64,000 nt of DNA from Phycisphaeraceae bacterium. GTDB taxonomy: Bacteria > Planctomycetota > Phycisphaerae > Phycisphaerales > UBA1924. The notes beneath the pieces are model-generated. The model did no database searches. It saw only the letters and a program-made list of their open reading frames with translations, and was not told the DNA's origin. Of this stretch, positions 437 to 30,139 are shown in pieces. The stretch lies in NCBI GenBank assembly GCA_019636655.1, contig JAHBXB010000001.1, positions 868,001 to 932,000 on the forward strand, given 5' to 3'. The stretch's first letter is position 1. Each line of letters opens with the position of its first letter. The position numbers and the translations under genes are program-made.

Positions 437-2431
437 GTGGCGACCGGCCTGATTCGCGTGTGCGGCGTGCTTCTCGCCACGGCAGTTCTGGTGGCCACCG
501 GTGGTACGACGGCCGTGGACAACGAGCCCGAGGGCGTGCTCTCGGCGGCCGAGCGTGCGGCGGGATGGGCCCCCTTGTTCAACGGCTCGGACCTCTCAGG
601 ATGGACCACGTCCGGGCATGCTGGCGTGTGGGGTGTTGAGGATGGCCAGATTGTGACGCGGCCCGGCGAAGGAGACGGGTGGTGGCTCCGCACAACGCGG
701 CAGTACCGTGATTTCGAACTCAAGCTCGACTTCCAACTTACCCCGGGCGCCAACTCGGGAATCGGCCTGCGCGGTTCCTCCATGGGGGATCCTGCGTTCA
801 CCGGGCTTGAGGTGCAGGTTCTCGACTCGGCGGGCGAGGCGCCGAGCATCACGAACTGCGGGGCTGTCTATGACGCGATCGCGCCGACCGCTATGGCGGT
901 CAGGCCCGCGGGAGAATGGAACACCTACCGGATCCACCTTGTCGGTGACACGCTCAACATCTGGCTGAACGGCGAGCAGATTCACAAGGACCAGCGGCTG
1001 GACGGCCGCGGCTTTGTCCACAGCCCGGATCACCCGAGCCCGCTTCAGGATCGCCTGACCACGGGATTCATCTCGCTGCAGTGCCACGGCGACGTTGTGC
1101 GTTTCCGTAATCTCAAGGTCCTTGATCTCTCTCCCGATCCAGATCCCGGCGACTTCGCGCCGATGTTCAACGGGAAGGATCTCACGGGCTGGCAGGGCAA
1201 GGGGAACGCGACGTGGACCGTCGAGGACGGCGTCGTCGTCGGGCAGAACGGGCCCGGGCACCTGTACGGTGACCCGGTCTTCACGGATCTGGAACTGCGT
1301 GCCCAGGTGCGGATCAACAGCGGCGGCAACTCGGGGCTGTACTTTCGCGCCGTCCCCCGGGGGGATGAGCCCGATGGCTGGCCGCTCGGGTTCGAGGCGC
1401 AGATCGACAACCACGATCCGAAGAACTTTACCGGATGCATCTACGCCAAAGCGTGGCCGGCCACCCGGAGCAGCCCGGTCTCGCGCGACGGCGCGTGGTT
1501 CGATCTTCGGGTACGGGCGACAGGCGGCCGAATCCAGACCTGGGTCAACGGCGAACCCATGGCCGATGCGAGCCTGCTCGACTTTGACATCGGCCGCGTC
1601 GCGCTCCAGAGCCACCATATGGGAAACAGAGTTGAATGGAAGGACCTCCAGGTGCGGGACCTCTCGGCCGGTTCCCACCCTGCCGGTCGGCAGAGTACAC
1701 CCCTGCGAGTCTTCTACTGCACCCATTCCGCGGGCTATCGGCACGAGGTGCTCCCGGAGACGCGGCAGATCCTGAACGACCTTGGGCGCAGACTGGATTG
1801 GCTGAGCGTGACGGTTTCCGATGACGTTCGTGACCTGACGCCCGAGCGCCTGGCCCAAACTGACGTGGTCATGTTCTATACGACGGGCTCGCTGCCGATG
1901 GGGCGGATGCGCGCGATACTGCTCGAATGGGTGGTCGCCGGCGGGGCGCTCGTCGGCGTTCATTCAGCGACGGATACCTTCGCCGATGAGCCGGAGTATG
2001 TGCGCACGATCGGCGGCACGTTCGACGGTCACCCGTGGAACGAGCAGGTGACCATGATCGCCCTTGAGCCGGACGACCCGATCGTCAGGCCGTTCCTCCT
2101 CACGGGCGGGTCGCGCGGCGGCGTCTCCCTGAGCCGCACGTTCACCATCGCGGACGAGATCTACCAGTTCAAGTCGCTCACCAACGATCGCCGCGTGCTG
2201 ATCGCGCTCGACCCCGCGACGCCCGGAGCGGAGCCGGGCCGTGAGTACCCGATCGCGTGGACGCGGGAGGTTGGTCGCGGCAGGGTCTTCTACACCGCCC
2301 TTGGGCACCGGCCCGAGGCCTGGCGTGATGATCGCTTCATGCAGCACCTGCTCGCCGGCCTCCGGTGGGCTGGCGGTCTCGATCCATCTCATGCCGGCGG
2401 AGCTCCCCCGAAGCCACAGGAACATCGATGA
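437..2431 (+). CDS. Secreted double DUF1080 (3-keto-disaccharide hydrolase) and ThuA-like protein
   Basis: A 664-residue exported protein. GTG 437 is chosen because GGAGG lies at 426-430; an in-frame GTG at 410 lacks such a site. After a hydrophobic signal (about residues 5-25) come two DUF1080 lectin-like jelly-roll domains, each beginning with PLFNGSDLSGW or PMFNGKDLTGW (about 42-235 and 240-420). The C-terminal third (about 430-645) is ThuA-like: VFYCTHSAGYRHE, a GGALVGVHSATDTF segment and GGTFDGHPWN. DUF1080 proteins act on 3-keto-glycosides or bind sugars, and ThuA domains have a glutamine-amidotransferase-like fold. The protein probably works outside the cytoplasm on oxidised sugars made with the upstream Gfo/Idh/MocA enzyme. 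Its stop overlaps the next start (ATGA at 2428-2431), so the genes are translationally coupled. Domain calls are firm; the substrate is unknown. Confidence 0.85.
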   Translation: MATGLIRVCGVLLATAVLVATGGTTAVDNEPEGVLSAAERAAGWAPLFNGSDLSGWTTSGHAGVWGVEDGQIVTRPGEGDGWWLRTTRQYRDFELKLDFQLTPGANSGIGLRGSSMGDPAFTGLEVQVLDSAGEAPSITNCGAVYDAIAPTAMAVRPAGEWNTYRIHLVGDTLNIWLNGEQIHKDQRLDGRGFVHSPDHPSPLQDRLTTGFISLQCHGDVVRFRNLKVLDLSPDPDPGDFAPMFNGKDLTGWQGKGNATWTVEDGVVVGQNGPGHLYGDPVFTDLELRAQVRINSGGNSGLYFRAVPRGDEPDGWPLGFEAQIDNHDPKNFTGCIYAKAWPATRSSPVSRDGAWFDLRVRATGGRIQTWVNGEPMADASLLDFDIGRVALQSHHMGNRVEWKDLQVRDLSAGSHPAGRQSTPLRVFYCTHSAGYRHEVLPETRQILNDLGRRLDWLSVTVSDDVRDLTPERLAQTDVVMFYTTGSLPMGRMRAILLEWVVAGGALVGVHSATDTFADEPEYVRTIGGTFDGHPWNEQVTMIALEPDDPIVRPFLLTGGSRGGVSLSRTFTIADEIYQFKSLTNDRRVLIALDPATPGAEPGREYPIAWTREVGRGRVFYTALGHRPEAWRDDRFMQHLLAGLRWAGGLDPSHAGGAPPKPQEHR

Positions 2432-13640: not shown

Positions 13641-16600
13641 TTACATCGGGACTTCCTTGAGCAGCAGGATCCGCGGCTTGTCGGCGCGGGACCGGACGTT
13701 CGAGCGGTCGACGACCATCACGTAGCGGCGCTGGATGCTGGGCACCATCGGCTCGTTGTCGGAGAGGCCCTCGACGTCCGACGGCAGGTAGCCCTGGATC
13801 ACGAACCAGCAGACAAAGACGTCGCTGCGCACCGTGAGCGTGTTGAGCACGGCGTTGGCGATGGTGAGTTTCTCTTCGTAGTCGTCCGCGATGGCGTTGG
13901 GGGCGCGGGTGGCCGGGAGGGAGGCGCCGACCGGGTAGGTCGTGCTGTCCAGGCCGTTGAGCAGGTTGGTCGTGGGCGGGGTGCCCGGGTTCGTGGGGGG
14001 ATCGAACGCAGAGAAGGTCAGGAAGTCGCGGGAGAAGCGGTCGATGGAGACGTCCCTGAACTCCCGCGGCGTGTTTGGCGTGCCCGCGGCGCCGCCCTGG
14101 GGGGCGTACCGCATCGTGGCGCAGAGGATCTCGCCCGGGGTGACGAAGCCGCGGTCCTCGCGGAGGCCGGGCAGGTCGTTCTGGACCTGGCGGACGTTGC
14201 GCACGCCGCCGGGCGGGATGGTGACGCTGCCGGGGGCAGCGGTGTAGTTGGTGGCGAAGTCGATGAGCAACTCGCTGTTCGCCGCGGTTGTCGGCCGGGT
14301 CCAGACCTTGGAGAGGTCTCGGTAGGCCATCAGCGTCGCGGCAACGTCGTACACTTCGGTTGCAGGATCGTACAGCGGCTGGTTGAGGACGCCCGGCGAA
14401 TAGCCCGGGACTTCCCACATCGGCTGCATCAAGTTGGTGTTGATGGTCGTCCAGGAGTCCTTGAGGGGCGCAACGAGCGGCAGGGACCGCAGGACGAAGA
14501 GCGGCGCGGTGTTGACGTTGATGGTGCCGTTGATGCGGGAACCCAGAGCACCGTAGTCGAGGCCGTTGAACTGCTCGACCACGCTCAGAGCCGCGGGGAT
14601 GCCGGGGACGCGGGGGATATCCAGGTCCGGACGAGCAAGGTCGATGTCGGGCATGCCCGAGCCACCGAGCTGGACCTGACCGTCGCCGTTGTAGAACGGC
14701 ACGAAGGCATTGAGGCGCAACTGACCGCGATCGGCGATGTACAGGCCGAAGCGGTCGTAGTTGGCCAGGAAGTTGGCATCAACCCCCGGCTGGCTCGGCG
14801 TGCCGGCACCCGAGGCCGCGGGCGTGTCGTAATCCAGACCAAGGGCGAGGGCCTCGCTGGTGGCGTGCCACTGGCGATTGATGGCCGCGATGTCGGTGAA
14901 GGCGGGGAACGTCGGCGTGGCGTTGGCATCGGGCTCCCACCAGGGGCCGATGATCATCGGGAGCAGCGTCTCGCCGACGCGGATCGTGGAGTACTGGACG
15001 CCGGTGTCGGTGTCGGTGAAGCCGTTGCGGAGGAAGACCTGCGGGTACATCTCGCTCCACTGCCGGCGGGGGTTGGCCTGCGGGTCGAAGGGGACACCGG
15101 GAGCGGGAAGCGGCTCGCCGCCGGAGGCACTGCGGTTGCCACTGGGGGGCATGTCGGTGTTGAGGCCGATGGAGACGGGCGCGGTCGTCACGGCCGTCTG
15201 GTTTTCCGGTCGGGTCCTGATTGAGGGCTTGATGATCTCGGTTTGATTAGCCAAGGCCTTGGCGATGGTCTCATCGCCATCTGTGCCGGTGCCAAAGTGG
15301 CGCTGATAGTCAATGGTGTTGGGATTGTCGATCGACTTGGTCGCGAGGTTCAGGCTTCCCCAGAGCGTGCCGCCGCCGGTCTGGTCGCGGGCTTCGAGGC
15401 AGTAGGCGGGGATGGCGCCCAGTGGGATCGTGGGCGTGGCGCCGGCACGGGGGTCCCGGGGCCGGCGGATGCTGCCCCACATCGTGATAGCGATGCCGGT
15501 GTTCTGATCGATATCACCCGAGCTCGCGCCGGGAAGTCGCGGATCCACACCAGCGACGGCGTTGGTGACAGTGACGAACGTCTGTGACTGATCGAACCGC
15601 TGATCCAGGGCCGGGCGCGTGACGTTAGCCGGCGAGGGATCGCGCAGCCGGTCGGCGAGCATCAGGTTCTGCATCGTCGTAGCGCCGCCGCCATCGAGTT
15701 TGCGCCAGAGGAGCACAGCCTTGTTGCGCGCCGAGCCGTTGACCGGGTCACTGCTCAGAATGTCCTGGACGTCGGTCGCGGGCACAGGCGTCTGGGTCAA
15801 TGTCGTGCGGTTCGTCAGTTCGATCACCTTGTCGCCGCCGGCGGAGGTGCCCAACTGGCGGTCGCGCCAGGCGGTGAAGTCCGGTGTGGTGCCACTGACG
15901 CCAGCCATGGCGCGGCGGACTCGGGAATCGAGGACGCCGACGTCGCCGGGGTTGGTGGCGTAGAGGATGGCCGTCTTTCCCGGGCTGAGGATCGTGCCCC
16001 CCGTTGCGGCGGTGGGGACCGACCACATGCTGTCACCGAACTGCACGATGTAGTCGCTCAGGTCGACCGCGTAGCCAAAGGGGTTGTGGACCTGGAACGC
16101 GACCATCTGGAAGATGAAGTCCGGGTTCCCGGCGCTGACCTTGGTCCCGATGGTGACCTCGCCCCTGCCAATATCGTCTGCGGGGTCAACCTGACCGGGA
16201 ACGGCCCCATTGTCGGTCCACGACCAGTTCTCTTCCAACTCGAAGTTGGCCACTGCCGCCGGCGCAGTGTCGCAGTAGACGATGTACGATGCGACCTGTG
16301 TCAGGAACGGCTGGGCCTCCATCCCGAAGACGCGGATCGAAGGAGGCTGCGTCGCGGGGTTCGGGTTCAGCTTGAGCCGCCCACGTTCGATGCCATCAAG
16401 ATCCAGAGTCAAGCGGCTCGCTGGACCACCCGTGGCGGTGGCGCCACCGGAGTACAAGAGCAGGTCTGCCGTGGTCGGTTGCTCGGCGCTGTACAGGTCG
16501 GGGGCGGTAGGCGCGCCGGGGTCCTTGAGGTCGAACGCATCGATCAGGTTCACGGTCTGGAACCCGGCGCAGCGGAGAGCGAGTTCCGGGCCGCGCCAGC

Positions 16601-18698
16601 CGTAGAAGAGGCTCTGTCGCTTCACAAACTCAGGGTCGGTGCGGTTCCAGGCAAAGTTATCGTTGGAGTCACGCAGCAGGGCATCGGAATAGGCGCGGAA
16701 GAGAAGGTTGACATTCGCAGCGTTCACCGCGCGGAGGGCTTCTGGCAGGTTCACCCGCAGGTCCTGGACGCCCAGCGGCGTATCGATCGACTCATTCGCG
16801 CCGAGCAGGCGGGACCGGATCGGCGCGGCGCCGGACTCGGGGGTGATCAGCCCCCGGACATCCGCGGCGACCTGCCTCATGGCGCTGTCGCTGGGGAGAC
16901 CGCGGTCGAGGTTCTGGCTCTCGGCGGCGATGTTCTCGATGCGGTTCTCGCGCTCGTACTCGGTGGGCCGGGGGCTGCGGAGCGGGTCGTAAGCCTGGAA
17001 CCCATCGGCGCGGCCGGCGGTGATCTGCTCGAGGCGGGAGAGGGTGCCGGGGTCGTTGCTGCCGCGGAAGGTGAAGAGTTCGAGGGCGTCGCCAAGGTCG
17101 GCGCCGAAGCCATACTGGACGGATCCGCCCGCCGCGGGGTCGTAGCGCCCGCCCGCGGGGTTGGCGCCGAACTGGCGGTATTGCCGCCCTCGCTCGGCGG
17201 GCTTGAGCATCTTGTAGCCAACGGGCGTGTAGACCACATCCGAGAGGGGAGGCAGGCCATGTTCCAGCGACTCCCAGAGGGCGGTAAAGGCCGCGAGACC
17301 CACAGCGTCGGCCTGGGCCGGGTCGTAGCGGTTGTAGTTACCGACTGGCTGGGGAATGATCCCGGTGGGATAGTTGGGGATCAGGTCGTACGCGAAGTTG
17401 AACGCATCGGTGGCGTCGGCGAGTCGGAGCAGACGCTCGACATCGACATCGGATGGGTAAAGACCGGCCGGGTAGTGCTCATCCGGCCGCGAATCCTGGC
17501 CGGGGTTGCTGAACTGCAGGGCGGTGTTGATGTTCACCATGCTCGAGGCATCAATGATCCTCGCGGCGATGAAGAGCCTCGCGGGGCCCTGGTTCTGCAG
17601 GATCGGGAGCCCCGCCGGGAGGTTGCCCACACCGCCGTTGGTGACCAGTTCGAACCAGCGGGAATCGAAGAAGCCGTCGCCATCGGTATCGGCGTACTGG
17701 TAGGGCAGGTAGTAGAGGCTGCCGGGGCCCTTGGTCGCGAGGTCAATGCCGGCACCGGGAACTCGCGGAAGCTGGTTCGCCGGGCGGAAGAGCCATCGCT
17801 GGTAGTCCGTCCAGTGGGCGGGCACGTTGAGGTCGGCGCGGTTGCCGGCGCCGAAGACCGCCGGAAGGGGTTGGCGGTTGCTGACGAGGGTTTCCGTGAT
17901 CCGTCCGGCCGCGTCGAAGAGCGTGAGGCCCCAACCGGTGCCGGCGGAGCGCATCGCCGGATCCGCCGCGCCCGGGTTCGGGGGCGTGATGCCGGACGAG
18001 GCGTGGAAGTTCCCGTTGGGGTTTTCCTCCGTCGGGCGGAGGGTGCCGATGTTGGCGAATCCGCCGTCGGGCGAGATGTTCGTGATGGTCAGGTCGTGGA
18101 AGTCGCGGTAGGCATCGGTGGCGCTGGCCGGGCCGTCGATCGAGTACGGGAGCGTGGTGGAAAGCCAGGGGTCGTAGCCTTCGCCGGCCGCGTTGAAGGG
18201 CGTGGCCCAATCGGCGTTCCCCGTTTGCGGGACCTTGCGTACGACGACCTGATGGCCTCGCTTGTCGATGGTGTCGCGCAGGGTGCTCAAGGTGGCGGGG
18301 AGGCCGGCGGAGGAGGCCACGCCAATGGCGGGGCGGGTCTGCGCGGTTCCGGGGATGTCCCATGACTCGCGCACCCGGCGCGGCGTCGCGAGGTCCGCCG
18401 GTGAGTTGCCGGAGATGAGCCGCTTCTCGACGGCCGGGACGAAGAGGTCGTCGCGGAGGACCGAGTTGATATAGGCGACGATGGCGTCGCGCTGGTCCGT
18501 GATCCGGGCGTCCCTCGCCATGGTGGCGGAGTTGCGCCGGTCGGCCTGGCCGATGGCGACGTAGGTCACCGCGACGATGGACAGCAGCGCGAGCACACCG
18601 ACGACCAGGAGCAGGATGGTGCCCCGCTCATGCCTGCCGTATCGAGAGCCGCCCCAGGTGTTCCGGGCGATCCGGTTGTTGCTGCTGGTGCCTTGCAT
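13641..18698 (-). CDS. Giant GspK/PilX-like minor pseudopilin (1685 residues)
   Basis: ATG 18698 has AGGAG 9 bases upstream; the frame stays open to 18860 but without a ribosome site. A basic leader (about 1-25) precedes a type III signal-like segment, ERG|TILLLVVGVLALLSIVA, which matches the K-type pseudopilin pattern lacking Glu at +5. The rest is a very long extracytoplasmic region. Two SxxNINTA-type motifs typical of the GspK saddle domain are visible (MVNINTALQFSNP at about 410 and TINVNTAPLFVLRSLPL at about 1445), so the GspK fold seems split by long insertions. GspK proteins cap pseudopili and are usually about 300 residues, so this is more than five times normal length. It is the last gene of the G-H-I-J-K series. 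K identity is inferred from leader, motifs and position. Confidence 0.75.
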   Translation of the reverse strand: MQGTSSNNRIARNTWGGSRYGRHERGTILLLVVGVLALLSIVAVTYVAIGQADRRNSATMARDARITDQRDAIVAYINSVLRDDLFVPAVEKRLISGNSPADLATPRRVRESWDIPGTAQTRPAIGVASSAGLPATLSTLRDTIDKRGHQVVVRKVPQTGNADWATPFNAAGEGYDPWLSTTLPYSIDGPASATDAYRDFHDLTITNISPDGGFANIGTLRPTEENPNGNFHASSGITPPNPGAADPAMRSAGTGWGLTLFDAAGRITETLVSNRQPLPAVFGAGNRADLNVPAHWTDYQRWLFRPANQLPRVPGAGIDLATKGPGSLYYLPYQYADTDGDGFFDSRWFELVTNGGVGNLPAGLPILQNQGPARLFIAARIIDASSMVNINTALQFSNPGQDSRPDEHYPAGLYPSDVDVERLLRLADATDAFNFAYDLIPNYPTGIIPQPVGNYNRYDPAQADAVGLAAFTALWESLEHGLPPLSDVVYTPVGYKMLKPAERGRQYRQFGANPAGGRYDPAAGGSVQYGFGADLGDALELFTFRGSNDPGTLSRLEQITAGRADGFQAYDPLRSPRPTEYERENRIENIAAESQNLDRGLPSDSAMRQVAADVRGLITPESGAAPIRSRLLGANESIDTPLGVQDLRVNLPEALRAVNAANVNLLFRAYSDALLRDSNDNFAWNRTDPEFVKRQSLFYGWRGPELALRCAGFQTVNLIDAFDLKDPGAPTAPDLYSAEQPTTADLLLYSGGATATGGPASRLTLDLDGIERGRLKLNPNPATQPPSIRVFGMEAQPFLTQVASYIVYCDTAPAAVANFELEENWSWTDNGAVPGQVDPADDIGRGEVTIGTKVSAGNPDFIFQMVAFQVHNPFGYAVDLSDYIVQFGDSMWSVPTAATGGTILSPGKTAILYATNPGDVGVLDSRVRRAMAGVSGTTPDFTAWRDRQLGTSAGGDKVIELTNRTTLTQTPVPATDVQDILSSDPVNGSARNKAVLLWRKLDGGGATTMQNLMLADRLRDPSPANVTRPALDQRFDQSQTFVTVTNAVAGVDPRLPGASSGDIDQNTGIAITMWGSIRRPRDPRAGATPTIPLGAIPAYCLEARDQTGGGTLWGSLNLATKSIDNPNTIDYQRHFGTGTDGDETIAKALANQTEIIKPSIRTRPENQTAVTTAPVSIGLNTDMPPSGNRSASGGEPLPAPGVPFDPQANPRRQWSEMYPQVFLRNGFTDTDTGVQYSTIRVGETLLPMIIGPWWEPDANATPTFPAFTDIAAINRQWHATSEALALGLDYDTPAASGAGTPSQPGVDANFLANYDRFGLYIADRGQLRLNAFVPFYNGDGQVQLGGSGMPDIDLARPDLDIPRVPGIPAALSVVEQFNGLDYGALGSRINGTINVNTAPLFVLRSLPLVAPLKDSWTTINTNLMQPMWEVPGYSPGVLNQPLYDPATEVYDVAATLMAYRDLSKVWTRPTTAANSELLIDFATNYTAAPGSVTIPPGGVRNVRQVQNDLPGLREDRGFVTPGEILCATMRYAPQGGAAGTPNTPREFRDVSIDRFSRDFLTFSAFDPPTNPGTPPTTNLLNGLDSTTYPVGASLPATRAPNAIADDYEEKLTIANAVLNTLTVRSDVFVCWFVIQGYLPSDVEGLSDNEPMVPSIQRRYVMVVDRSNVRSRADKPRILLLKEVPM

Positions 18699-18816: not shown

Positions 18817-20574
18817 TCAATAGCTGACGCCGGTGTCCCGCTGCGGGACCTTGAAGACAAACTGGTACGTCTGCTCGTAGGTCGGATCGTTCGGATCGAC
18901 GAGGCTCATTGTGATCCGCATGAGTTTGGGCCAGAGCCAGGGAACGGTGCTCTCCCGCGCGTTCTGCGCGGCGGGATTGAAGGTGGGATCGATGTACCCG
19001 AAGTAGGAGTAGAGCACCGGCGGGGGCGGGTTGGGAACGGGGGTGTTCGCGTAGCCGTGGATCAGGCCGGGGCGGACAGGGTGCTGGAAGACGTTGCCGT
19101 TCTTGAGCGGAACCGGAACGGTGACGGCACCCCCGTAGGGATCGGCGTACAGGCGCTCGCCCGACGCGCTATCCCAGATGTTGTTGCCGTTCACATCCTC
19201 GAACCGGTCGCGCCCGTGCCAGATGACCTCCGGCGCCGTCACACCCGGAGCGACGAGGACGTTGGCCGTCTCACCGAAGGACCACTCGACGATGAACTCG
19301 CTGCACCCGGGCACGAAGTTGAAGGCCGAGAGCGTGACCTGATCGGTGCGGCGGTAGTCCTCGGCGGCAGCGGGCCAGCCCGGGCCGAGGCCCAGGTAGT
19401 TCGGCGGCGTCGGCTCGCAGCGCATCCGCCCGCCGCGGTCGAGCGAGGCGCTCGGGTTGGCGTTCGCGGCTTGAGAACCGCCGATGTCCCCATCGACGGG
19501 GAGGGCCAGTCGCATCCACGCCTGCATGGCGCCGGAGATCGGGGCCGATGGGGTCCCGCCGGGCTCGACGGGGAACTGGCTGACCATCTGGGCCATGGCG
19601 CCCGAGAAGAGCGGGTAGCTGGACACCCCCGTGGGATTGCCCAGGCCAAGGACTGCGGCGCGGATCTCGGCGAGATCGGTGTTGGCGATATCAACGACGC
19701 CGGAGCCGAATCGCGGGACCTTGATATCGGTGGCGCCGTTGCGGACCAGTTGGTTGTCCGGGGTCACCGCCGAGGGGAACCTCGCGGACGAGTTCAGCCA
19801 ACTGAAGATGCTCGGCGCGGCGGGCTGGAGAGAAACCTGGATCGGACAATCGGCCCAGACGGCGGTGTTGATCAGGTTGGGCGGGCGCAGGGCCGCAGGC
19901 GGGATGTCCTGCCGGCTCGGGTCGTTGGCGTGGGCCAGCAGGGTCACGTGGCGCAGCAGAATCCAGTTCGAGGCGTACTGGTTGTAGTACGGCGTGACTC
20001 CGGCGGCGGCCTTGATCCCCAGCGCCCACGGCGCGTGCTGTGTCGGGATGGTGTTGTCGTCATCGATGGCGATGGGCTCGGCCCATTCCTGCTGCGGATC
20101 CTTCGGCTCGCGAGGCAGGCCGTGGCCGTAGTAAATGCGAGCGACGTTGGACCGTGCGATCCGTGAGGGATGGACTGCATCACGAACCGTCGAAAAGTCA
20201 CCCTTGGCAAAGAACGCGAGTTGATCCGCCCGGCGTGTGCGCTGCCGGGCGAGCGGCTGGCCCGGGTAGAGCTCCACCGGGTCGCCGGGGTTGTACCCGC
20301 CGCGGACTTCTTCGTGACGGATCACCATGAACCCGTCGCGGGTCATCGAGTCGATATCCTGGCGCAGCTGGCGCTCGATCGCGGCGGCGTATTGGTTGAA
20401 GTAGGAGAGCCTTCGGCCGCCTTTGAGCGTGGCGCCGGTGGCTCGGAAGACCTGCGAGATGCCGACCGCGAGCAGCGCCACGGCCGCGACCGCGACCATC
20501 ACTTCGAGCAGCGTGAAGGCCGCGGAGGATTTGCGTCGCGGCGCTCGGGGTGTGCTGTGGGTGAATCGGGTCAT
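18817..20574 (-). CDS. GspJ-like pseudopilin, enlarged
   Basis: A 585-residue prepilin-like protein. The type III signal is SSAA|FTLLEVMVAVAAVALLAVG, with Ala instead of the usual Gly at -1 and Glu at +5. After the membrane helix comes VFRATGATLKGGRRLSYFNQYAAAIERQLRQDIDSM, a J-type feature: the helix runs into a region resembling other GspJ proteins. The remainder is about 500 residues of beta-rich, Pro/Asn-rich sequence, about twice normal GspJ length. It lies between the I-like and K-like genes, the standard order in type II secretion operons. Function: minor pseudopilin of the tip complex. The J assignment rests on order and the N-terminus; the body is not recognisable. Confidence 0.75.
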   Translation of the reverse strand: MTRFTHSTPRAPRRKSSAAFTLLEVMVAVAAVALLAVGISQVFRATGATLKGGRRLSYFNQYAAAIERQLRQDIDSMTRDGFMVIRHEEVRGGYNPGDPVELYPGQPLARQRTRRADQLAFFAKGDFSTVRDAVHPSRIARSNVARIYYGHGLPREPKDPQQEWAEPIAIDDDNTIPTQHAPWALGIKAAAGVTPYYNQYASNWILLRHVTLLAHANDPSRQDIPPAALRPPNLINTAVWADCPIQVSLQPAAPSIFSWLNSSARFPSAVTPDNQLVRNGATDIKVPRFGSGVVDIANTDLAEIRAAVLGLGNPTGVSSYPLFSGAMAQMVSQFPVEPGGTPSAPISGAMQAWMRLALPVDGDIGGSQAANANPSASLDRGGRMRCEPTPPNYLGLGPGWPAAAEDYRRTDQVTLSAFNFVPGCSEFIVEWSFGETANVLVAPGVTAPEVIWHGRDRFEDVNGNNIWDSASGERLYADPYGGAVTVPVPLKNGNVFQHPVRPGLIHGYANTPVPNPPPPVLYSYFGYIDPTFNPAAQNARESTVPWLWPKLMRITMSLVDPNDPTYEQTYQFVFKVPQRDTGVSY

Positions 20575-20638: not shown

Positions 20639-21757
20639 TCAGGGGACAAGGGTCCAGGTCACGACGGCAGCGGGAACCTGCTGGGTGAAGACAATCTGGC
20701 GGATCTCGGGGCGGTTGGCGGCCCCGGGGGACGTTGCAGGGATCGCGGCAGGAACCTCGGGGGTGATGCGCACCCACTGGCGGCCGTCGGCATCGGCCCC
20801 GTTCTCGAGCACGGTGTAGATGCTGCCGAGGTTGTCGATCAGTTTCTGGTTCGGGAGCCTGGCGTAGTTCCAGAGTTCATTGATCTGCGTCTGGTTGACG
20901 CCCGTGTCAAGGTACAGCCTGTCGCGCCGGCCCAGCACGGGGTGGCCCTGTGTGTAGCGGTACTCCACGGCGAGCGTCTTGATCGGGCAATAGGTTGGTG
21001 CTCCGGTGGCGCCCAGGCCATCCTGAGTGGGGATGCCTGTCGTGGGGTCTTCACCGACGGGCACACGCTGGTTCTGCTGCGAGAGGCCGATCCGCTGCGT
21101 CAACGCGGCGAACAGCGTCAGCGGCTGACCGAACGCATCGGTAGCGGCTTCCGGGAGGCGGATGCGGGGATCGAGCCTGCGGACGAAGATCGCGAACCGG
21201 AGGGAGTCGTTGAGATACCCGTCCACGAAACTGGCCTGCCAGGGGATCTCGTCCATGTCCGGCACACGCTGGACGGCGATGTCCCAGACGAACTGCGGCT
21301 CGATTCCGTTGCCGGGGTCGCGCGGGTAGAGCCGCTCGGCCATGCTGATGTGGAACGACGGGACGTTGGCGTTCGGAGGATCGGGGACCTGGACCATGCC
21401 CGTATCGGGGACGACGGACAGCGGCTTCCACTCGCCGCGGATGTCCGAGGCGTTGAGGGGCATCACGAGCTGGTTCGTATCGTCCCTCAGGATTTGCCAA
21501 AGCGTCTTGCCGGTATTTGGACCGGTGCCCTGGATGGGCGGATTGGAGGCCAGCTGCTCAAGCTGGTCTCGGGCCGACTGCGCGGCGAGAACGCCGAAGG
21601 TCGTCTCGGTTCCGATCCGCTGCTCGCGCACGACGACGGGGAACACCGCGCCAAGGCCGAGAAGGCCAAGACCGAGGATCAGCACGGCGATAAGCACCTC
21701 GATAAGCGAGAAGCCCCTCGTGTGTCGCGACAGCATGCGGCGGTGGGCCCGGGTCAT
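20639..21757 (-). CDS. GspI/PilV-like pseudopilin
   Basis: A 372-residue protein whose ATG 21757 overlaps the stop of the previous gene (ATGA). The leader ends RHTRG|FSLIEVLIAVLILGLGLLGLGAVFP, an excellent class III signal with Gly at -1 and Glu at +5, and the SLIEVLIAxLIL pattern of GspI/PilV. The soluble part (Val/Pro-rich, about 340 residues) is longer than the usual 120-residue GspI. It includes TLAVEYRYTQGHPVLGRRDRLY near the C-terminal third. Role: minor pseudopilin acting in the inner-membrane tip complex. Coupled translation with the H-like gene implies a fixed ratio. The I label is inferred from order and leader type. Confidence 0.78.
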   Translation of the reverse strand: MTRAHRRMLSRHTRGFSLIEVLIAVLILGLGLLGLGAVFPVVVREQRIGTETTFGVLAAQSARDQLEQLASNPPIQGTGPNTGKTLWQILRDDTNQLVMPLNASDIRGEWKPLSVVPDTGMVQVPDPPNANVPSFHISMAERLYPRDPGNGIEPQFVWDIAVQRVPDMDEIPWQASFVDGYLNDSLRFAIFVRRLDPRIRLPEAATDAFGQPLTLFAALTQRIGLSQQNQRVPVGEDPTTGIPTQDGLGATGAPTYCPIKTLAVEYRYTQGHPVLGRRDRLYLDTGVNQTQINELWNYARLPNQKLIDNLGSIYTVLENGADADGRQWVRITPEVPAAIPATSPGAANRPEIRQIVFTQQVPAAVVTWTLVP

Positions 21758-22971
21758 AGTTCGATCTCCACGCGCTTGATATCGCCGGTGAACCGGTCGA
21801 TCACGAATACCTTGGCCTGCGGCTCGTCGACGCGGCCCTGGCCGTCGGGGTTGACGCGGTCGGCCATGGTGCCGTCGAAGTTCGTGTCGCCCTCGATCCA
21901 GTCGTTCATGTAGACGCCCAGTTGTTGGCTTGTCACGGACGAGGGCACGAACTGCGGGGACGTGACGGTGGAGCCGGGCATCTGGTAGAGGCAGCCGGAC
22001 TCGCGGTCGGTCCGGACCTCGAAGCGGGCCAGGGCGCCCGCGAGTTTGGCCTCGTCGTAGAGCGCGAGCTGGCCGACGCTGCGGGCGAGGATGGTGTCCG
22101 CCGACTGGTCGCCAAGGAGCTCGCGGCGGACGATCGTCGCTGCAAAGCCGGGCTGCTCCGCGATCGGTGTGCTGGCAGGGTTGTCGTCGCGGAGCGGGCT
22201 GGCGAGCACCCGCTGCACGTAGCGACGGATGTCGGGCGTGGTATCGATGCGGAAGTTGGATTGGGGCGCATTCGACCGGCCGATGATCGTCTGCCGCGGG
22301 GCCACGATGATCGCCTCGGCTCCGCCGCCGTTGGAGAGCAACCCGGTCCCGGCTTCGAAGCGGACCATGAACGTCTGGCGTGTACGGCCCGCCGGTCCCG
22401 CATTGATGGTCGCGGGGTTTGGGTCGTAGAAGCCTGTCTCGGGGAACACCCAGTCCCCCAGCCCCTGCGCCATCCGGCCGCCGTACCGGCGGGAGGTGGC
22501 GCCGCCCGGCCCATCTTCGTACCACGCCCCCGTGGGGCGGATCGTGCCGACCGGCGCGTAGCCGCGGACCATCCAGTCGCGGGGCAAGGCGACGGGCTCG
22601 AAGAGAGAAGAGACGACGAACACATCGCGGCGGAGGCTCCGCGCGGGGTTCCCGGGGGCGACGGGGTCCTCGTCTTCGAGCACGCCGACCTTGACGAACG
22701 GAACGAGCATCATGCGGCCGCCGGGCTCGAAGAAGAACACGACGGCGGCGTCGGCGTCCCCGCTGGAGCGGATCGCGGCATCACGGGCGGTGCGGAGAGC
22801 GTTGACGAGCCTGGTGTTGGCGAGGGCGGACTCGCTCGACGCGATCATCGATGAGAACGACGGGATCGCGATGGTCGCGACCAGCACGATGATGATGATC
22901 ACCACCAGCAGTTCGGTGAGCGTGAATGCCCGCCGCGGCTGGGCGTGGGGTTGGATGGATCTACGGATCAT
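21754..22971 (-). CDS. GspH/FimT-like pseudopilin
   Basis: A 405-residue protein whose ATG 22971 overlaps the stop of the G-like gene. The signal PRRA|FTLTELLVVIIIIVLVATIAIP has Ala at -1, as in the J-like gene, and Glu at +5. FSSMIASSESALANTRLVNALRTARDAAIRSSGDADAAVVF matches the GspH/FimT N-terminal helix followed by a strand, so the H call is fairly strong. The soluble region is about 370 residues, more than double the classic size. It ends EPQAKVFVIDRFTGDIKRVEIEL. Role: minor pseudopilin joining the main pseudopilus to the tip complex. Confidence 0.8.
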   Translation of the reverse strand: MIRRSIQPHAQPRRAFTLTELLVVIIIIVLVATIAIPSFSSMIASSESALANTRLVNALRTARDAAIRSSGDADAAVVFFFEPGGRMMLVPFVKVGVLEDEDPVAPGNPARSLRRDVFVVSSLFEPVALPRDWMVRGYAPVGTIRPTGAWYEDGPGGATSRRYGGRMAQGLGDWVFPETGFYDPNPATINAGPAGRTRQTFMVRFEAGTGLLSNGGGAEAIIVAPRQTIIGRSNAPQSNFRIDTTPDIRRYVQRVLASPLRDDNPASTPIAEQPGFAATIVRRELLGDQSADTILARSVGQLALYDEAKLAGALARFEVRTDRESGCLYQMPGSTVTSPQFVPSSVTSQQLGVYMNDWIEGDTNFDGTMADRVNPDGQGRVDEPQAKVFVIDRFTGDIKRVEIEL

Positions 22972-23867
22972 TCGCCGACCTCCACGACATCGTCCTCGGT
23001 GGTCGAGTCGAGTGGGTTAGGGTCGGTAGCGGGCGTCACCACACCGGCGGTCGGCAAGGGCTTGCGCTCGTCGGTCTTGCCGTCGGGCCCGACGCTGACA
23101 ATGGCGAACCGGGCGCTGCGCAGCTTGGGGTTCTTGTCGGGGTCGCCGACGGCCCGCGGCACGAGGTACTGCGAGATCTGCCCGGCGTTGGGGCCCGCGG
23201 CGGTCTCCTGCGGCAGCCAGCGGTAGTAGCGGATCGCGTGCTCCCGCTGCGAGGCGCCGGTGTGCCACCGATCGACCATGAAGATCTCGGCTTCGGCGGC
23301 GCGATTCGCGGGGTTGCCCGGGCGGATCAGTCGGTTCTTCGTTCCCGGATCGAACAGCGGGTTGAACGTCTCGCCGCGCTGGGAGAACGAGCCGTCGGCG
23401 AGTGGCCGGGTGAACCCAGGTCCCTTGACCCCATCGACGGGCTTGGGTGATGCGGCGCTCATGTCGTCGGTGTCGAGCACGCCCATGAGGTAGAACGGGA
23501 GCGAGAAGATGCTGTACCGCGGCTTGTCGGGCTGGACCTCGTACCGCAGGAACGCGTCGTTCCAGACCACCGGGCGACGGACGCCGACGTCGGGAACGGG
23601 GAATCCGGTCCCGGCGCCGTCGTCGTCAACCAGGGGTGGGAGAAAACCAAACGTCTGCTTAAACTGCTCCACCGCAGTCGCGAGCGAACGCACCACCTCT
23701 CGCTCCGCCGTGACGCGCGAAGACCGCACGACGCGGCCGACAGCAACCGTCACCAGCGCCGCCATGATGGCGACGATGACGATGACCACCGAGAGCTCGA
23801 TGAGCGTGAACCCGGCGCGAGACCGGCACGCTCCTCTCATTGCTTCAGCCCTGACGTTGCGGTGCAT
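22968..23867 (-). CDS. GspG/PilE-like major pseudopilin
   Basis: A 299-residue protein. ATG 23867 has GGAGAG upstream; a later ATG ten codons in would shorten the leader. RSRAG|FTLIELSVVIVIVAIMAALV is a canonical class III signal (Gly at -1, Glu at +5). REVVRSLATAVEQFKQTFGFLPPLVDDDG resembles the GspG alpha-helix followed by the Pro-rich loop. The C-terminal part contains YRWLPQETAAGPNAGQISQYLVPR and FAIVSVGPDGK, the last like the calcium-binding GspG tail (x-SxGxDGx). Role: main subunit of the pseudopilus, or a pilin of a type IV-like filament. It is longer than usual (about 150) by an internal insertion. Confidence 0.8.
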   Translation of the reverse strand: MHRNVRAEAMRGACRSRAGFTLIELSVVIVIVAIMAALVTVAVGRVVRSSRVTAEREVVRSLATAVEQFKQTFGFLPPLVDDDGAGTGFPVPDVGVRRPVVWNDAFLRYEVQPDKPRYSIFSLPFYLMGVLDTDDMSAASPKPVDGVKGPGFTRPLADGSFSQRGETFNPLFDPGTKNRLIRPGNPANRAAEAEIFMVDRWHTGASQREHAIRYYRWLPQETAAGPNAGQISQYLVPRAVGDPDKNPKLRSARFAIVSVGPDGKTDERKPLPTAGVVTPATDPNPLDSTTEDDVVEVGE

Positions 23868-23902: not shown

Positions 23903-25198
23903 TCACAGGCCGCCGTTGCCGCCCTGCAGCGACTCGATCATCGCGACCAGGGGCATGAACATGGCGACGACGATGGTGCCGACGATGCCGCCAAGGCACA
24001 CGACCAGCATGGGCTCGATCAGCGAGACGAGCGCGGCGACTGCGACGTCGACCTCCTCGTCGTAGTTGTCCGCGATCTTCAGCAGCATGGCGTCCATGTC
24101 GCCGGTCTCTTCACCGACATCGATCATGTTGACGACGATCGCGTCGCAGACCTTGCTCTCCCGCAGCGGGTTGGCGAAACTCTCGCCCTCGCGGATCGAG
24201 TCGTGCACCTTTCCCAGCGCCTTCTCGAAGACGTAGTTGCCGCAGGTATCGCGGGTGATCAGGATCGCCTCGAGAATGGGGACGCCGGCGGAGATCAGGG
24301 TGCCCAGCGTCCGGGTGAAACGTGCGATCGTGGTCTTGCGGGCCAGCGTCCCGATCACCGGCGTCCATAGCAGGAGCTGGTCGAACAGCGCCCGCCCGGG
24401 GGTCGCCTTCCTCGCCAGCTTGACGAGGATGATGATCAGGAACGGGCTCAGGAAGATCCACACCGCCCCGGGGATAGTCTGCCCGATGTTGTTGCCGGCC
24501 ACCCACCGGCTCGCCTCGATCAGCGACCGGGTGATGCTGGGCAGCGAGACCTGGAAGTCCTTGAAGATCTCCTCGAACTTCGGGATGATGAACCACATGA
24601 TGAACGTCACGATCGCGACCGCGACGAAGACGACCACCGCGGGGTACACGAGCGCGCCGATGATCTTGCGGCGAAGCCGCTGGGCCTTCTCCATGAACTC
24701 GGCGAGGCGCTGAAGGATCACGTCGAGCACGCCGCCTACCTCGCCCGCGGCCACCATCTTGGTGTACAGCCGGTCGAACGCACGCGGGTGCTTGCTCATC
24801 GATTCCGAAAGACTCGTGCCGCCCTCGACATCCTCGCAGACATCGCCGAGGATGCCCTTGAGCTTGCCGGGCTTGAGCTGGCTCTCGAGGATCTGCAGCG
24901 AACGCAGAAGGGGAAGCCCGGCGTCCTGCAGCGTCGACAACTGACGCGTGAACGTCGTCAACTGTTTCTTCGAAACGCCGCCGATGCTGATCGTGATGCC
25001 CTGGCTGCTCTTCTTCTTCGCTTTCTTGGCATCGGCGGCATCGGGCCCGGCCTTCTTGCCCTTCTGCTCCTTCACCAGAGTCGGGAAGAACCCCTGCGCC
25101 TTGATCCGCTGGATCGCTTCCTCGCTCGAGGTGGCCTCGACCGTCCCCTTCTGGGGCTTTCCGGCGGCGTTCAGGGCTTCGTAGACAAAGGTGCTCAT
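23903..25198 (-). CDS. gspF: Type II secretion/type IV pilus inner-membrane platform protein
   Basis: A 431-residue GspF/PilC family protein of standard length. It begins MSTFVYEALNAAGKPQKGTVEA, with a Lys-rich stretch (KKAGPDAADAKKAKKKSS, about 47-64). Two T2SSF repeats follow, each with a LxxAGxPLLRSLxIL-type helix (QDAGLPLLRSLQILE; ISAGVPILEAILIT) and three membrane segments (about 185-210, 240-265, 395-425). The DVGEETGDMDAMLLKIADNYDEEVD segment is a family hallmark. It anchors the ATPase and guides pilin insertion. It lies between the gspE-type ATPase and the G-like gene, as in typical operons. Confidence 0.95.
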   Translation of the reverse strand: MSTFVYEALNAAGKPQKGTVEATSSEEAIQRIKAQGFFPTLVKEQKGKKAGPDAADAKKAKKKSSQGITISIGGVSKKQLTTFTRQLSTLQDAGLPLLRSLQILESQLKPGKLKGILGDVCEDVEGGTSLSESMSKHPRAFDRLYTKMVAAGEVGGVLDVILQRLAEFMEKAQRLRRKIIGALVYPAVVVFVAVAIVTFIMWFIIPKFEEIFKDFQVSLPSITRSLIEASRWVAGNNIGQTIPGAVWIFLSPFLIIILVKLARKATPGRALFDQLLLWTPVIGTLARKTTIARFTRTLGTLISAGVPILEAILITRDTCGNYVFEKALGKVHDSIREGESFANPLRESKVCDAIVVNMIDVGEETGDMDAMLLKIADNYDEEVDVAVAALVSLIEPMLVVCLGGIVGTIVVAMFMPLVAMIESLQGGNGGL

Positions 25199-25290: not shown

Positions 25291-27033
25291 CTACGCCTCG
25301 TCCGCGATGGTCTCGCGTACGACCTCGTCGATCGTCGTCAGGCCGTCGAAGATGGCCATCAGCCCGCACTCGCGGAGCGTGCGCATCCCGAAGCGACGGG
25401 CGGCATCGCGGATCAGGTTGGTGCTCGCTCGCCGCATCACCAGCTCGCGCAGCTCGTCGTTCATCGCCATGATCTCGAAGATGGCGCACCGGCCGCGGAA
25501 GCCGGAGCCATGGCAGTTGTCGCACCCCCGCCCTCGGAAGAGCCGCTGGCCCTCGATGTCCGCCGGAGTCAGGGCCAGCTCCATCAGCTCCTCTTCCTTG
25601 GGGATGTAGGGCTCCTTGCAGTCCTTGCAGATGGTGCGGACCAGTCGCTGGGCGACGATGCCCTCGATCGTGGCGGTCAGGAGGAACGACTCGATCCCGA
25701 GATCGAGCAGACGGATGATCGAGCTCGGCGCATCGTTGGTGTGCAGGGTGGTGAGCACCAGGTGGCCGGTCAGCGACGCCTGCACGGCGATCTGGGCGGT
25801 CTCGAGGTCGCGGATTTCGCCGACAAGGATGATGTCCGGATCCTGACGGAGGAACGACCGCAGCGCCTTGGCGAAGGTCAGTTCCATCTCCGTGTTCACC
25901 TGCACCTGGCACAGCCCGTCGATGTCGTACTCGACCGGGTCCTCCGCCGTAAGGATCTTGGTCTCGATGTCGTTGAGTTCCTGCAGCGCGGCATAGAGCG
26001 TCGTCGTCTTGCCCGAACCGGTCGGGCCGGTGACGATCACGATGCCGTTGGGGCGGTTCACGAGCTTGCGGAACGTGTCGAGGTCGTCCTCGCGGAGACC
26101 TACGCGGTCCAGGGCCAGCTCGACGTTGCTGCGGTCCAGCACACGCATCACGACGCTCTCGCCGTGCATCGTCGGCAGCACGCTCACGCGAAGGTCGATC
26201 GGCGTCCCCCCCACCGTCAGCTCGATGCGGCCGTCCTGGGGCAGCCGCCGCTCGGCGATGTCGAGGTTCGCCATGACCTTTACGCGGCTGGTGATCGCCG
26301 GGCCAAGGTGCTTGGGCGGCGGGACCATCTCGTACAGCACGCCGTCGATGCGGTACCGCATCTTGAACTCGTTCTCGAACGGCTCGAAGTGGATGTCGCT
26401 GGCCCGGTCCTTGATCGCCTGCAGAAGGACAAGGTTCAGCAGCTTGACGACCTTGTTGTCGTCCGCAGCCTCCATCACCGCGTCGAGGTCGATCGAGGCG
26501 CCGCCGCGTCCGCCCGCGAGGCTCTTGAGCCGATCGTCCGCCGCGAGGGCGCTCACAACCTCCGTCATCGACTCCTTCTTGGAGTAATGCTTCTTGAGCA
26601 GGGCGTCGATCTCGGCCGCGTCCGCGACAACCGCCTCGACGTTGAAGCCGAGCAGCATCCGCAGGTCGTCAACCGCCCGGAAGTTGTCCGGGCTCTTCAT
26701 CGCGATGCGGAGGCGGCGGCTCTTGGGGTTGTAATCGACCGGGACGACCTGGTAGGCCTGGGCCGTTTCCGAGGTGATCGCGTCGCGGACCTCGTCCGAG
26801 AGCTCCTTCCCGGCGAGGCTGACGTACTCCATCCCCGCCTGGCCCGCCAGAGCCTCATTGACGTCCCGCTGGGTGCAATACCCCAGTTCGACGAGCAACT
26901 GCCCCAAGGGGACCTTGCGAGTCTTCTGAACGGCCAAGGCTTCGTGGACTCGCTCGCGGGTGACCTTGCCGAGCTTCGCCAGCACCCGGCCGATCTTGCG
27001 GCCCTTGAGTTCCGTTGGATCAATCCCAGCCAT
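25291..27033 (-). CDS. gspE: Type II secretion assembly ATPase, GspE/PilB family
   Basis: A 580-residue motor ATPase. The N-terminal MshEN-like domains (about 1-150: LGQLLVELGYCTQRDVNEALAGQAGMEYV) usually bind c-di-GMP or GspL-type partners. The catalytic half has Walker A GPTGSGKTTT (about 336-345), Asp-box/Walker B DPDIILVGEIRDLETAQIA, His-box TGHLVLTTLHTNDAPS, and a tetra-Cys zinc site (CKDC...CDNC). It powers pseudopilus assembly. This is one of two such ATPases here; the other (28397-30139) is closer in style to PilB. No GspL-like gene is in view, so recruitment to the membrane may be through GspF alone. Confidence 0.93.
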   Translation of the reverse strand: MAGIDPTELKGRKIGRVLAKLGKVTRERVHEALAVQKTRKVPLGQLLVELGYCTQRDVNEALAGQAGMEYVSLAGKELSDEVRDAITSETAQAYQVVPVDYNPKSRRLRIAMKSPDNFRAVDDLRMLLGFNVEAVVADAAEIDALLKKHYSKKESMTEVVSALAADDRLKSLAGGRGGASIDLDAVMEAADDNKVVKLLNLVLLQAIKDRASDIHFEPFENEFKMRYRIDGVLYEMVPPPKHLGPAITSRVKVMANLDIAERRLPQDGRIELTVGGTPIDLRVSVLPTMHGESVVMRVLDRSNVELALDRVGLREDDLDTFRKLVNRPNGIVIVTGPTGSGKTTTLYAALQELNDIETKILTAEDPVEYDIDGLCQVQVNTEMELTFAKALRSFLRQDPDIILVGEIRDLETAQIAVQASLTGHLVLTTLHTNDAPSSIIRLLDLGIESFLLTATIEGIVAQRLVRTICKDCKEPYIPKEEELMELALTPADIEGQRLFRGRGCDNCHGSGFRGRCAIFEIMAMNDELRELVMRRASTNLIRDAARRFGMRTLRECGLMAIFDGLTTIDEVVRETIADEA

Positions 27034-28396: not shown

Positions 28397-30139
28397 TCAG
28401 ACCTCCTGGGCCTCGACGGTGGCCATGTCCGCATCGACCTGGGCCATCTTGGCGATCTCGTCAGGGGTCGTCACGCCGCGAAGGACCTTGAGTTTGCCGT
28501 CGTGAACGAGCGACCGCATTCCATTGTTGATCGCGGCCTTGCGGAGCTGGGAGATCGAGGCCTTGTTGAACGCCAGTTCACGGATCTCCGAGTTCATCTG
28601 CATCATCTCAAAGATCGCCTGGCGGCCGCGGAACCCGGTGTTGTTGCAGTTGGAGCACCCGACCGGCTTGAGCACCCGGCCGGCGGCCTCTTCGGGGGAG
28701 ATATCGGTAAGCGCCAGGAACTTGTGATCCGGCTCCGGATCCGGGGCCTTGCACTGCTTGCAGAGCACGCGGATGAGCCGCTGGGCCATGACGGCCTGGA
28801 TCGACGAAGCCACGAGGAAGGGCTTGATGCCCATATCGATGAGGCGCGTGATCGCGCTGGGCGCGTCGTTGGTGTGCAGCGTGGAGAACACGAGGTGACC
28901 GGTAAGCGCGGCCTGGATGGCGATCTCACCGACCTCGCGGTCGCGGATCTCGCCCACCAGGATGATGTTGGGCGCCTGGCGGAGCATCGTGCGCAGGATC
29001 GTCGGGAATCCCAGCCCGATCTTCTCGTTCACCTGGACCTGGTTGATCCCCTCGAAGTTGTACTCGATGGGGTCCTCGGCCGTGATGATCTTCTTGTCCG
29101 GACGATTCAGCACATCGAGCGCCGAGTACAGCGTCGTCGTCTTGCCTGAGCCGGTGGGGCCGGTCACGAGGAAGATGCCGTTGGGCCGGCGGATGATGCG
29201 GTTGAAGACGGCGAGGTTCTCTTCCTCGAAGCCGAGATTGACCAGGCCGATCCGGACCGAATCCGGCCGGAGAATACGCAGCACGACCGACTCGCCGTGG
29301 TACACCGGGCACGCCGAGACACGGAAATCGATGCTCACATCGTCGACCGGGATCTTGATGCGGCCGTCCTGCGGCACACGCTTCTCGGCGATGTTCATGC
29401 CAGACATCAGCTTGAAGCGGCTGAGCACGGAGTTCTGCATGCGCTTGGGCAGGTTGTCCCGCTCGATACACACGCCATCGATCCGGTAGCGAAGCCGAAC
29501 GCGGTCGGCCATCGGCTCGATGTGCACGTCCGACGCCCGCATCTTCACCGCCTCGGTGAGGATGCGGGTGCACAGGCGGACGATCGGCGCTTCCTCTGCG
29601 GCGATATCGATCGACTTGTCAACCGACCGGTCAACCGAGCGATCGATCGTGCGATCGATGGACTCGGTCACCAGGCTCTCGTTCGCGCCGATGAGCTTGT
29701 TGTCCGCCTTGAGCTTGGTATCGATGAACTTCTTGATCTGCCCCCGCCCGGACAGCCTCGGATCGATCTCGACATTGAGCCGGAACCGAAGCATGTCCTG
29801 CAGTTCCAGGTCCATGGGGTCATGGATGACCAGTTGCAGGCGCCCGCCCGCCTTGGCCAGGGGCAGGATCAGGTGCTTCTTGATGAGGTCCTCGGGGATG
29901 AGCTTGGAGTCGATGCGGCTTGCGACCCCATCGGCCGACAGGTCGACGTACTCCATCCCGAACTGGTTGGCCAGGGCCTTGGCCACCTGGTCCTCGGTGA
30001 CAAACCCGAGATCGACCAGTGATTCGCCGATGCGCTTGCGGCTGGCCTTCCCGGCCTCGAGGGCCTTGTCCACCTGAGCCTGGGTGACTGCACCCCATCC
30101 CACCAGGATCTCGCCGAGTTTCTTTCTGGATCGTGCCAT
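28397..30139 (-). CDS. pilB: Type IV pilus extension ATPase, PilB-like
   Basis: A 580-residue GspE/PilB ATPase, first gene of the cluster. MshEN-type N-domain (LGEILVGWGAVTQAQVDKALEAG), Walker A GPTGSGKTTT (about 327-336), Walker B APNIILVGEIRDREVGEIA, His box TGHLVFSTLHTNDAPS and zinc Cys pairs CKQC...CSNC are all visible. Between the N-domain and the catalytic core sits a repetitive linker, SIDRTIDRSVDRSVDKSID (160-178), coded by a short tandem repeat. It makes up the anabolic motor partner of the PilT-like gene 57 bases downstream. ATG 30139 lacks a strong ribosome site, with only AAGGA about 14 bases upstream. Confidence 0.92.
   Translation of the reverse strand: MARSRKKLGEILVGWGAVTQAQVDKALEAGKASRKRIGESLVDLGFVTEDQVAKALANQFGMEYVDLSADGVASRIDSKLIPEDLIKKHLILPLAKAGGRLQLVIHDPMDLELQDMLRFRLNVEIDPRLSGRGQIKKFIDTKLKADNKLIGANESLVTESIDRTIDRSVDRSVDKSIDIAAEEAPIVRLCTRILTEAVKMRASDVHIEPMADRVRLRYRIDGVCIERDNLPKRMQNSVLSRFKLMSGMNIAEKRVPQDGRIKIPVDDVSIDFRVSACPVYHGESVVLRILRPDSVRIGLVNLGFEEENLAVFNRIIRRPNGIFLVTGPTGSGKTTTLYSALDVLNRPDKKIITAEDPIEYNFEGINQVQVNEKIGLGFPTILRTMLRQAPNIILVGEIRDREVGEIAIQAALTGHLVFSTLHTNDAPSAITRLIDMGIKPFLVASSIQAVMAQRLIRVLCKQCKAPDPEPDHKFLALTDISPEEAAGRVLKPVGCSNCNNTGFRGRQAIFEMMQMNSEIRELAFNKASISQLRKAAINNGMRSLVHDGKLKVLRGVTTPDEIAKMAQVDADMATVEAQEV

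Follow-up and report, generated by a model that had tools for sequence, protein, structure and literature searches.

Among the described systems closest to the locus studied here, XcpX forms the top of the XcpUVWX tip according to the accessible part of PMC6211770, and GspK is presented in the accessible part of PMC8179133 as a modular pilin whose alpha domain is inserted into the pilin sheet. The latter text also describes pilins that carry an added binding domain, with GspK and ComZ as cases of insertion into the sheet, and of the open-access papers searched it is the one that mentions GspK together with planctomycetes.

We analysed a window of 64,000 nucleotides (the whole stretch of DNA under study) from a Phycisphaeraceae bacterium, below called the host. 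The long frame singled out in an earlier note at 13641-18698 exists, with the correction that it lies on the minus strand: it runs stop-free for 1685 codons from an ATG at 18698, and the plus strand across the same positions is broken by stops. Other in-frame starts are an ATG at 18719 and a TTG at 18860, the frame being open that far (1739 aa). E. coli GspK has 327 aa, so that the window protein (K below) is about 5.2 times longer, in line with the previously claimed size of more than five times that of classic GspK. Its leader reads HERG/TILLLVVGVLALL (slash, cleavage point), and the asparagines of its two N-x-NTA motifs, which had been placed about 1000 residues apart, stand at 374 and 1379 (1670-residue numbering), a measured distance of 1005 residues. 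Columns D322, G325, D326 and D330 of its DGDG loop are invariant in 25 sequences. The features of the K frame, from the N-terminus onwards, are as follows:

13641..18698, minus strand: giant K-type minor pseudopilin gene, 1685 aa, an open frame matched in 39 of the 41 genomes searched from the order
18459..18620, minus strand: N-terminal hydrophobic helix behind the cleavage point RG/T, without Glu at +5
17655..17690, minus strand: DTDGDGFFDSRW, a loop that we take to be EF-hand/TSP3-like, with columns invariant in 25 sequences
17520..17561, minus strand: motif 1, RIIDASSMVNINTA, placed where GspK has its first NxN motif (classical GspK 96-114, E 0.0084)
16530..16553, minus strand: VNLIDAFD, candidate counterpart of I-x-D-x-x-D in the first helical domain of GspK
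15894..16346, minus strand: inserted beta-rich stretch, lamin-tail-like in relatives (PF00932 below cut-off in relatives)
14304..14528, minus strand: motif 2, GTINVNTAP...VLRSLP...AYRD, second SAM/HHH-like domain (hhalign E 1.4e-8, GspK 216-256)
13644..13844, minus strand: C-terminal strands, TVRSDVF...RRYVMVVDRSNV...LLLKEVP (hhalign E 4.5e-4, GspK 272-321)

K is the last gene of an operon on the minus strand in the order ATPase-PilT-ATPase-GspF-G-H-I-J-K. Its partners, from K outwards, are:

18817..20574, minus strand: J-like minor pseudopilin, 585 aa, TIGR01711 sub-threshold, prepilin leader
20639..21757, minus strand: I-like minor pseudopilin, 372 aa, TIGR02523 sub-threshold (scanned from 21751), prepilin leader
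21754..22971, minus strand: H-like minor pseudopilin, 405 aa, TIGR01708 sub-threshold, prepilin leader
22968..23867, minus strand: G-like pseudopilin, 299 aa, TIGR01710 sub-threshold, prepilin leader
23903..25198, minus strand: GspF/PilC-type platform protein, TIGR02120 400.8 bits (cut-off 424)
25291..27033, minus strand: PilB/GspE-type ATPase with MshE-like c-di-GMP motif, TIGR02538 635.5 bits, NF053729 44.3 bits
27203..28339, minus strand: PilT/PilU-family ATPase (retraction type), TIGR01420 437.8 bits, over the cut-off of 319.1
28397..30139, minus strand: second PilB/GspE-type ATPase with MshE-like c-di-GMP motif, TIGR02538 602.6 bits, NF053729 61.6 bits

The genes are closely packed, with overlaps of 4 bases each between G and H and between H and I and a gap of 118 bases between J and K when the latter is started at 18698. 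The two PilB/GspE-type ATPases flank PilT, an order kept in 24 of 31 loci, and both exceed the cut-off of 38 of the c-di-GMP motif model NF053729; neither reaches the PilB cut-off of TIGR02538 (675.65 bits, against 635.5 and 602.6) or that of GspE (630.25 bits, against 624.1 and 552.5). Inspected by eye, Glu5 is present in the window G, H, I and J and absent in K, as in all 25 of the 25 aligned K proteins. The host genome has one frame with a prepilin-peptidase match (PF01478 30.7 bits, over cut-off). The reported enlargement of G (299 aa), H (405 aa), I (372 aa) and J (585 aa) was borne out, and H, I and J are large across the order too, with mature lengths of roughly 170-400, 210-500 and 380-720 residues by automatic leader calls. 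Median identity over 15 same-family loci is 71-83% for the ATPases and GspF, 31-37% for G to J and 28% for K, the low identity of pseudopilins and K relative to the machine proteins being expected for exposed parts. Elsewhere in the window, on the plus strand, one frame at 31055-33046 presumably joins an RluD-type pseudouridine synthase to a methyltransferase (by eye), and a 972-aa frame at 2365-5283 contains several CxxCH motifs and has the look of a multi-haem cytochrome c (by eye).

Single-sequence searches of K against Pfam, NCBIfam and the PDB gave no match, and neither GspK model (PF03934, NF037980) matched it at all. We therefore turned to profiles, aligning segments of a 17-member K alignment with hhalign to a classical GspK profile made from 13 planctomycete loci hand-picked from 34 together with E. 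coli GspK; the other PF03934 places of the host genome (L001-L004) were excluded from this set, and the E-values refer to a single comparison. The leader segment (1-75) aligned to classical GspK 2-47 with E 9.8e-7, motif 1 to 96-114 with a weak E of 0.0084, motif 2 to 216-256 with E 1.4e-8 and the C-terminus to 272-321 with E 4.5e-4, and the stretch ending in VNLIDAFD fell on 140-155 with an E of 0.18 that is non-significant alone. Column shuffling (40 controls) never gave as high a score for any landmark. The same was true of two inserted stretches outside the landmarks (E 0.066 and 0.55), which makes the shuffle control lenient, so that the real weight rests on the leader, motif 2 and the C-terminus only. 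The C-terminal part of 20 K proteins matched classical GspK at 98.0% with E 2e-13 over 217-322; with the operon's own H, I and J families as controls the values were 0.1, 0.1 and 0.4%. Of the 25 aligned K proteins, five touch NF037980 (best E 9.5e-5) and one touches TIGR02600 (E 0.031). A same-class member of 1020 aa (L177) exceeds the PF03934 cut-off (39.3 bits against 24.2) and reaches 61.5 bits with NF037980 (cut-off 130) over profile positions 200-286 of 307, both matches sitting at the motif-2 and C-terminal region; the NF037980 cut-off of 130 was reached by no K member scanned.

No pilin or pseudopilin came up when the PDB was searched with the lamin-tail-like alignment, with the C-part alignment or with L177; the last two matched, weakly, nothing but a helix-hairpin-helix nuclease chain. 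NINTA also draws ComEA-type models as well as this nuclease chain and is thus a generic helix-hairpin-helix motif. The original argument from a K leader and two NINTA copies is therefore sound in as far as the profile comparison places them where GspK has them; the copies by themselves prove little. Structure prediction of two constructs, each from six sequences including L078 cut at a contig start, gave mean pLDDT values of 31.8 (L079, 892 aa) and 30.2 (window residues 474-1670), and the models are unusable for fold, probably because of the shallow alignment. In the L079 model (pLDDT 31.8; order only) a long N-terminal helix, strands, helices and strands are followed by a long stretch free of secondary structure, helices and three final strands, an order that agrees with GspK and to which we give little weight. 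Judged from the profile comparisons, window K is homologous to GspK, and the assignment as a K-type minor pseudopilin holds, with the C-part match and the PF03934 score of L177 among its grounds. As it stays under every curated threshold, we term it a GspK-type variant, outside the curated GspK family.

The large size of K is real, as first proposed, and no oddity of one genome. At E <= 0.001 window K has a match in 39 of the 41 genomes searched from the order: its own, all 24 that belong to its family and 14 of the remaining 16; no match was found in the genomes G029 and G032. A K frame is present in 31 of the 36 stretches read (the window region and 35 more), the five exceptions (L062, L066, L067, L068, L070) being places with short matches in the genome search. 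We aligned 25 of these 31 frames, leaving out L037, L051, L054, L057, L058 and L063 because of an unrecognised leader or a cut at a contig end; the 17-member and 10-member K alignments are subsets of this one. The 25 proteins have 1015-2076 aa, with a median mature length of about 1606, and in the 15 same-family loci the alignments span, in the median, 1.07 times the length of the query. In 24 of the 31 loci K lies behind the G-J run with the four machine genes upstream in window order; six of the others are cut short (L045, L051, L056, L057, L058, L071) and L063 shows no first ATPase or PilT within the stretch read. One or more of G, I and J were too diverged for labelling in L064, L065 and L069, and in more distant families (L053-L055, L059-L061, L063, L064) the cluster holds a second G-like pseudopilin gene. 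A scan of a contig collection gave at least five K loci, titled Phycisphaerales, Phycisphaerae or Phycisphaera, and two of these are compact members with the same landmarks, of 892 aa (L079) and 820 aa (L080).

Across the phylum, matches to the 17-protein K profile at E <= 0.001 came from 163 of 294 planctomycete genomes. Among the matches listed from beyond the class, most are confined to the leader. Twenty phylum regions were read for the leader, DGDG/motif 1, VNxxDxxDxD, motif 2 and T-x-RS-x-x-F. Several of these landmarks stand in profile order, in whole or in part, in 12 regions (L166, L168, L170, L173-L179, L183, L184, with L175-L178 of the same class), in frames of 894-1947 aa. The other eight regions have no ordered landmarks: L171, L172 and L180 match at the leader only, L181 and L182 at the leader and an out-of-place piece of motif 2, and L165, L167 and L169 hold no K candidate at threshold, though the profile search listed matches there. 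A G-, H- or I-type gene lies downstream of the K frame in L168, L179 and L183, which are outside the order; K is thus not invariably last, and gene order is not fixed over the phylum. Large K size is the rule in the order and is also met elsewhere in the phylum.

The added length sits between the landmarks. E. coli GspK, with 327 residues, has its NxN motifs near positions 104 and 216, and the three resulting intervals of about 100, 112 and 111 residues have become about 363, 1005 and 291 in window K, in all some 1300 residues added between GspK landmarks. In finer division the spacings of window K are 314 (leader to DGDG), 49 (DGDG to motif 1), 328 (motif 1 to VNxxD), 677 (VNxxD to motif 2) and 231 (motif 2 to RSD), with a tail of 60; the fourth varies most over the 25 K proteins (380-963). 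Directly behind VNxxD window K has a beta-rich-looking stretch with G-x-E-x-QPF and NPF. The lamin tail model PF00932 gave sub-threshold matches in four of the 25 K members (best E 0.0017) and, among nine proteins scanned of which two are shared with the 25, matched L065, L069, L173, L176 and L178, best in L176 (E 4.9e-7, 30.6 bits, below the cut-off of 34.3); it did not match window K itself. A lamin-tail-like insert is thus probable in the relatives, and from them we infer one for window K. No recognised adhesin or carbohydrate-binding domain was found in K.

We favour, as rather probable, the reading of K as a giant distant GspK relative that carries, in its inserted modules, a head for ligand binding on a filament that is retractable and responds to c-di-GMP. 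The prepilin peptidase would cut K at RG/TILLL. Given the absence of Glu5, K would then start and cap the filament together with I and J, as is thought for GspK, with its pseudopilin core docking it onto the filament. The inserted modules, including at least one lamin-tail-like beta sandwich in relatives, would stand out from the tip and form a head that binds a surface, a polymer or another ligand. The ATPases would push the K-tipped filament out and PilT would pull it back; the presence of PilT and of two ATPases with c-di-GMP motifs suggests regulated extension and retraction. With a docking part that is kept and insertions that change fast, a ligand-binding head is the most economical interpretation, and we prefer a binding function of the head over envelope scaling.

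The host genome has other clusters to set beside this operon. One, at C1:1162233-1175412, contains an ATPase, F, G-type pseudopilins, a secretin and a K-like frame of 497 aa (PF03934 29.5 bits, over cut-off). Another, at C3:18737-41249, contains an ATPase (opposite strand), F, G-type pseudopilins and a K-like frame of 549 aa, below the PF03934 cut-off and over that of HHH_3, and its run continues to a PilM-like gene and a secretin of 3900 aa, in which 31 Secretin_N stretches were counted. A further PF03934 place (L074, 424 aa), in which no pseudopilin neighbours were seen, was not counted as K. There are six secretins in the host genome; further secretin/ATPase sets lie at C2:274251-278692 and C6:2238-6367, and two of the four sets (C1, C3, C2, C6) have pseudopilins. 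The 3900-aa secretin is at G000:C3:29547-41249 on the plus strand (loci L075, L129, L186), one of 4624 aa with 40 Secretin_N stretches is found in G022 (L187), and stop-free secretin frames of at least 3000 aa occur in at least 22 of the 41 genomes. A giant secretin is perhaps a stalk spanning a very deep periplasm.

Could K instead be the DNA-binding tip of a natural-transformation pilus, similar to ComZ, with PilT retracting the captured DNA? We keep this as a rival reading and hold it to be unlikely. The operon does contain PilT, and at another place in the host genome PF03934 matches a frame of 154 aa that we guess to be ComEA-like. A ComEC-type channel (PF03772) is present in 40 of the 41 genomes; its occurrence does not follow that of K, since it is found in the K-less G029 and G032 and missing in the K-bearing G038. 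No DNA-binding domain was found in K and no com gene among the operon genes. A precedent is ComZ, which has a beta-solenoid set into its pilin sheet and is believed to bind DNA (PMC8179133, accessible part).

A type II secretion machine whose giant head serves to recruit or push exoproteins of unusual size would fit the G-H-I-J-K order and the relationship with GspK, and is in our view likewise unlikely. None of the six host secretins lies within the window, the frames of the cluster itself, flanks aside, are all assigned to parts other than GspC, L and M, and the operon includes a PilT-type ATPase. A type II secretion system is more readily seen in the C1 and C3 clusters, each of which combines a secretin with an ATPase, F, pseudopilins and a K-like frame.

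It had also been suggested that a giant tip could fit a very thick envelope. An enlargement of the whole tip solely to span such a depth is suited by the size of H, I and J in the order and by the secretins of 3900 and 4624 aa in two genomes, which would fit a deep periplasm. Depth alone would make the C3 K giant, yet that frame has 549 aa in the very gene run of the 3900-aa secretin and the remaining host K-like frame 497 aa, and K length varies about twofold among 25 relatives; the suggestion is thereby disfavoured and seems to us quite improbable. An artefact, by frameshift or fusion of two genes, is suggested by the large size only and can be set aside, as the homologues in 24 other loci are unbroken and of similar size (1015-2076 aa), which speaks against the frameshift that had been named as a possible refutation, and the phylum frames of 894-1947 aa carry ordered landmarks.

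Beyond the retractable ligand-binding tip that we prefer for the window, we tentatively propose, as a serious possibility that we stop short of calling probable, that giant tip pseudopilins of about 900-2400 aa make up an undescribed clade shared by Planctomycetota. Their GspK scaffold may have grown into a multi-module, lamin-tail-bearing head, possibly stabilised by calcium at the DxDGDG loop. Such proteins would be among the largest pilin subunits known and would give the phylum a route to surface contact or polymer capture via a c-di-GMP-controlled retractable filament. The GspK scaffold would seem able to bear more than 1000 extra residues, in a design that is stable across the order and met elsewhere in the phylum. 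Since no Pfam or NCBIfam model recognises window K, annotation misses such genes and makes the pili of Planctomycetota appear less rich than they are in fact. With a head of this size, a conserved operon and a retraction ATPase, a role of a giant tip pilin in attachment, DNA uptake or polymer capture is open to test. In the open-access literature, searched over titles and the starts of abstracts, we found no report of giant K proteins or of giant planctomycete secretins, and the term "Verru_Chthon cassette" was not found in the open-access literature searched.

By size, the nearest described family is the Verru_Chthon cassette protein A (TIGR02600, 1296 positions), which we compared over planctomycete sequences. 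At E <= 0.001, TIGR02600 has matches in 68 of the 199 planctomycete genomes scanned, those listed covering the leader end and many lying in frames of 1000-2100 aa; none of the 199 genomes exceeds its cut-off. Window K has no match, and its membership was rejected at this cut-off. Positions 1198-1228 of the model match the C-terminal region of L173 (E 0.003) and L174 (E 0.042), and Verru_Chthon D (TIGR02596) matches the H-like protein of the window below threshold.

With GspK/XcpX the giant K shares a leader without Glu5, the NxNTA helical domain, the terminal strands and the place of its gene directly behind G-H-I-J, in the window and in relatives, and it has a candidate for the first NxN motif at the right place. 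It differs in its 1685 aa against 327 in E. coli, in its long insertions and in matching neither PF03934 nor NF037980, and the window operon has PilT and no secretin. The modular pilins PilB of Streptococcus sanguinis and ComZ of Thermus likewise combine a small pilin module with a bulky functional one, inserted into the sheet in ComZ and GspK, as the accessible text of PMC8179133 has it; the inserted domains are other ones, giant K has several insertions, and it is longer than the 860-residue many-module pilin quoted in that text. The Kil pilus tips of Myxococcus, in which minor pilins, one of them large, make up an exchangeable functional tip, are similar in principle, although they belong to a Tad/Flp system with another pilin family (PMC12075869, accessible part). 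The type IV pilus machine, finally, has its counterpart here in the PilT-type retraction ATPase, over the cut-off of TIGR01420.
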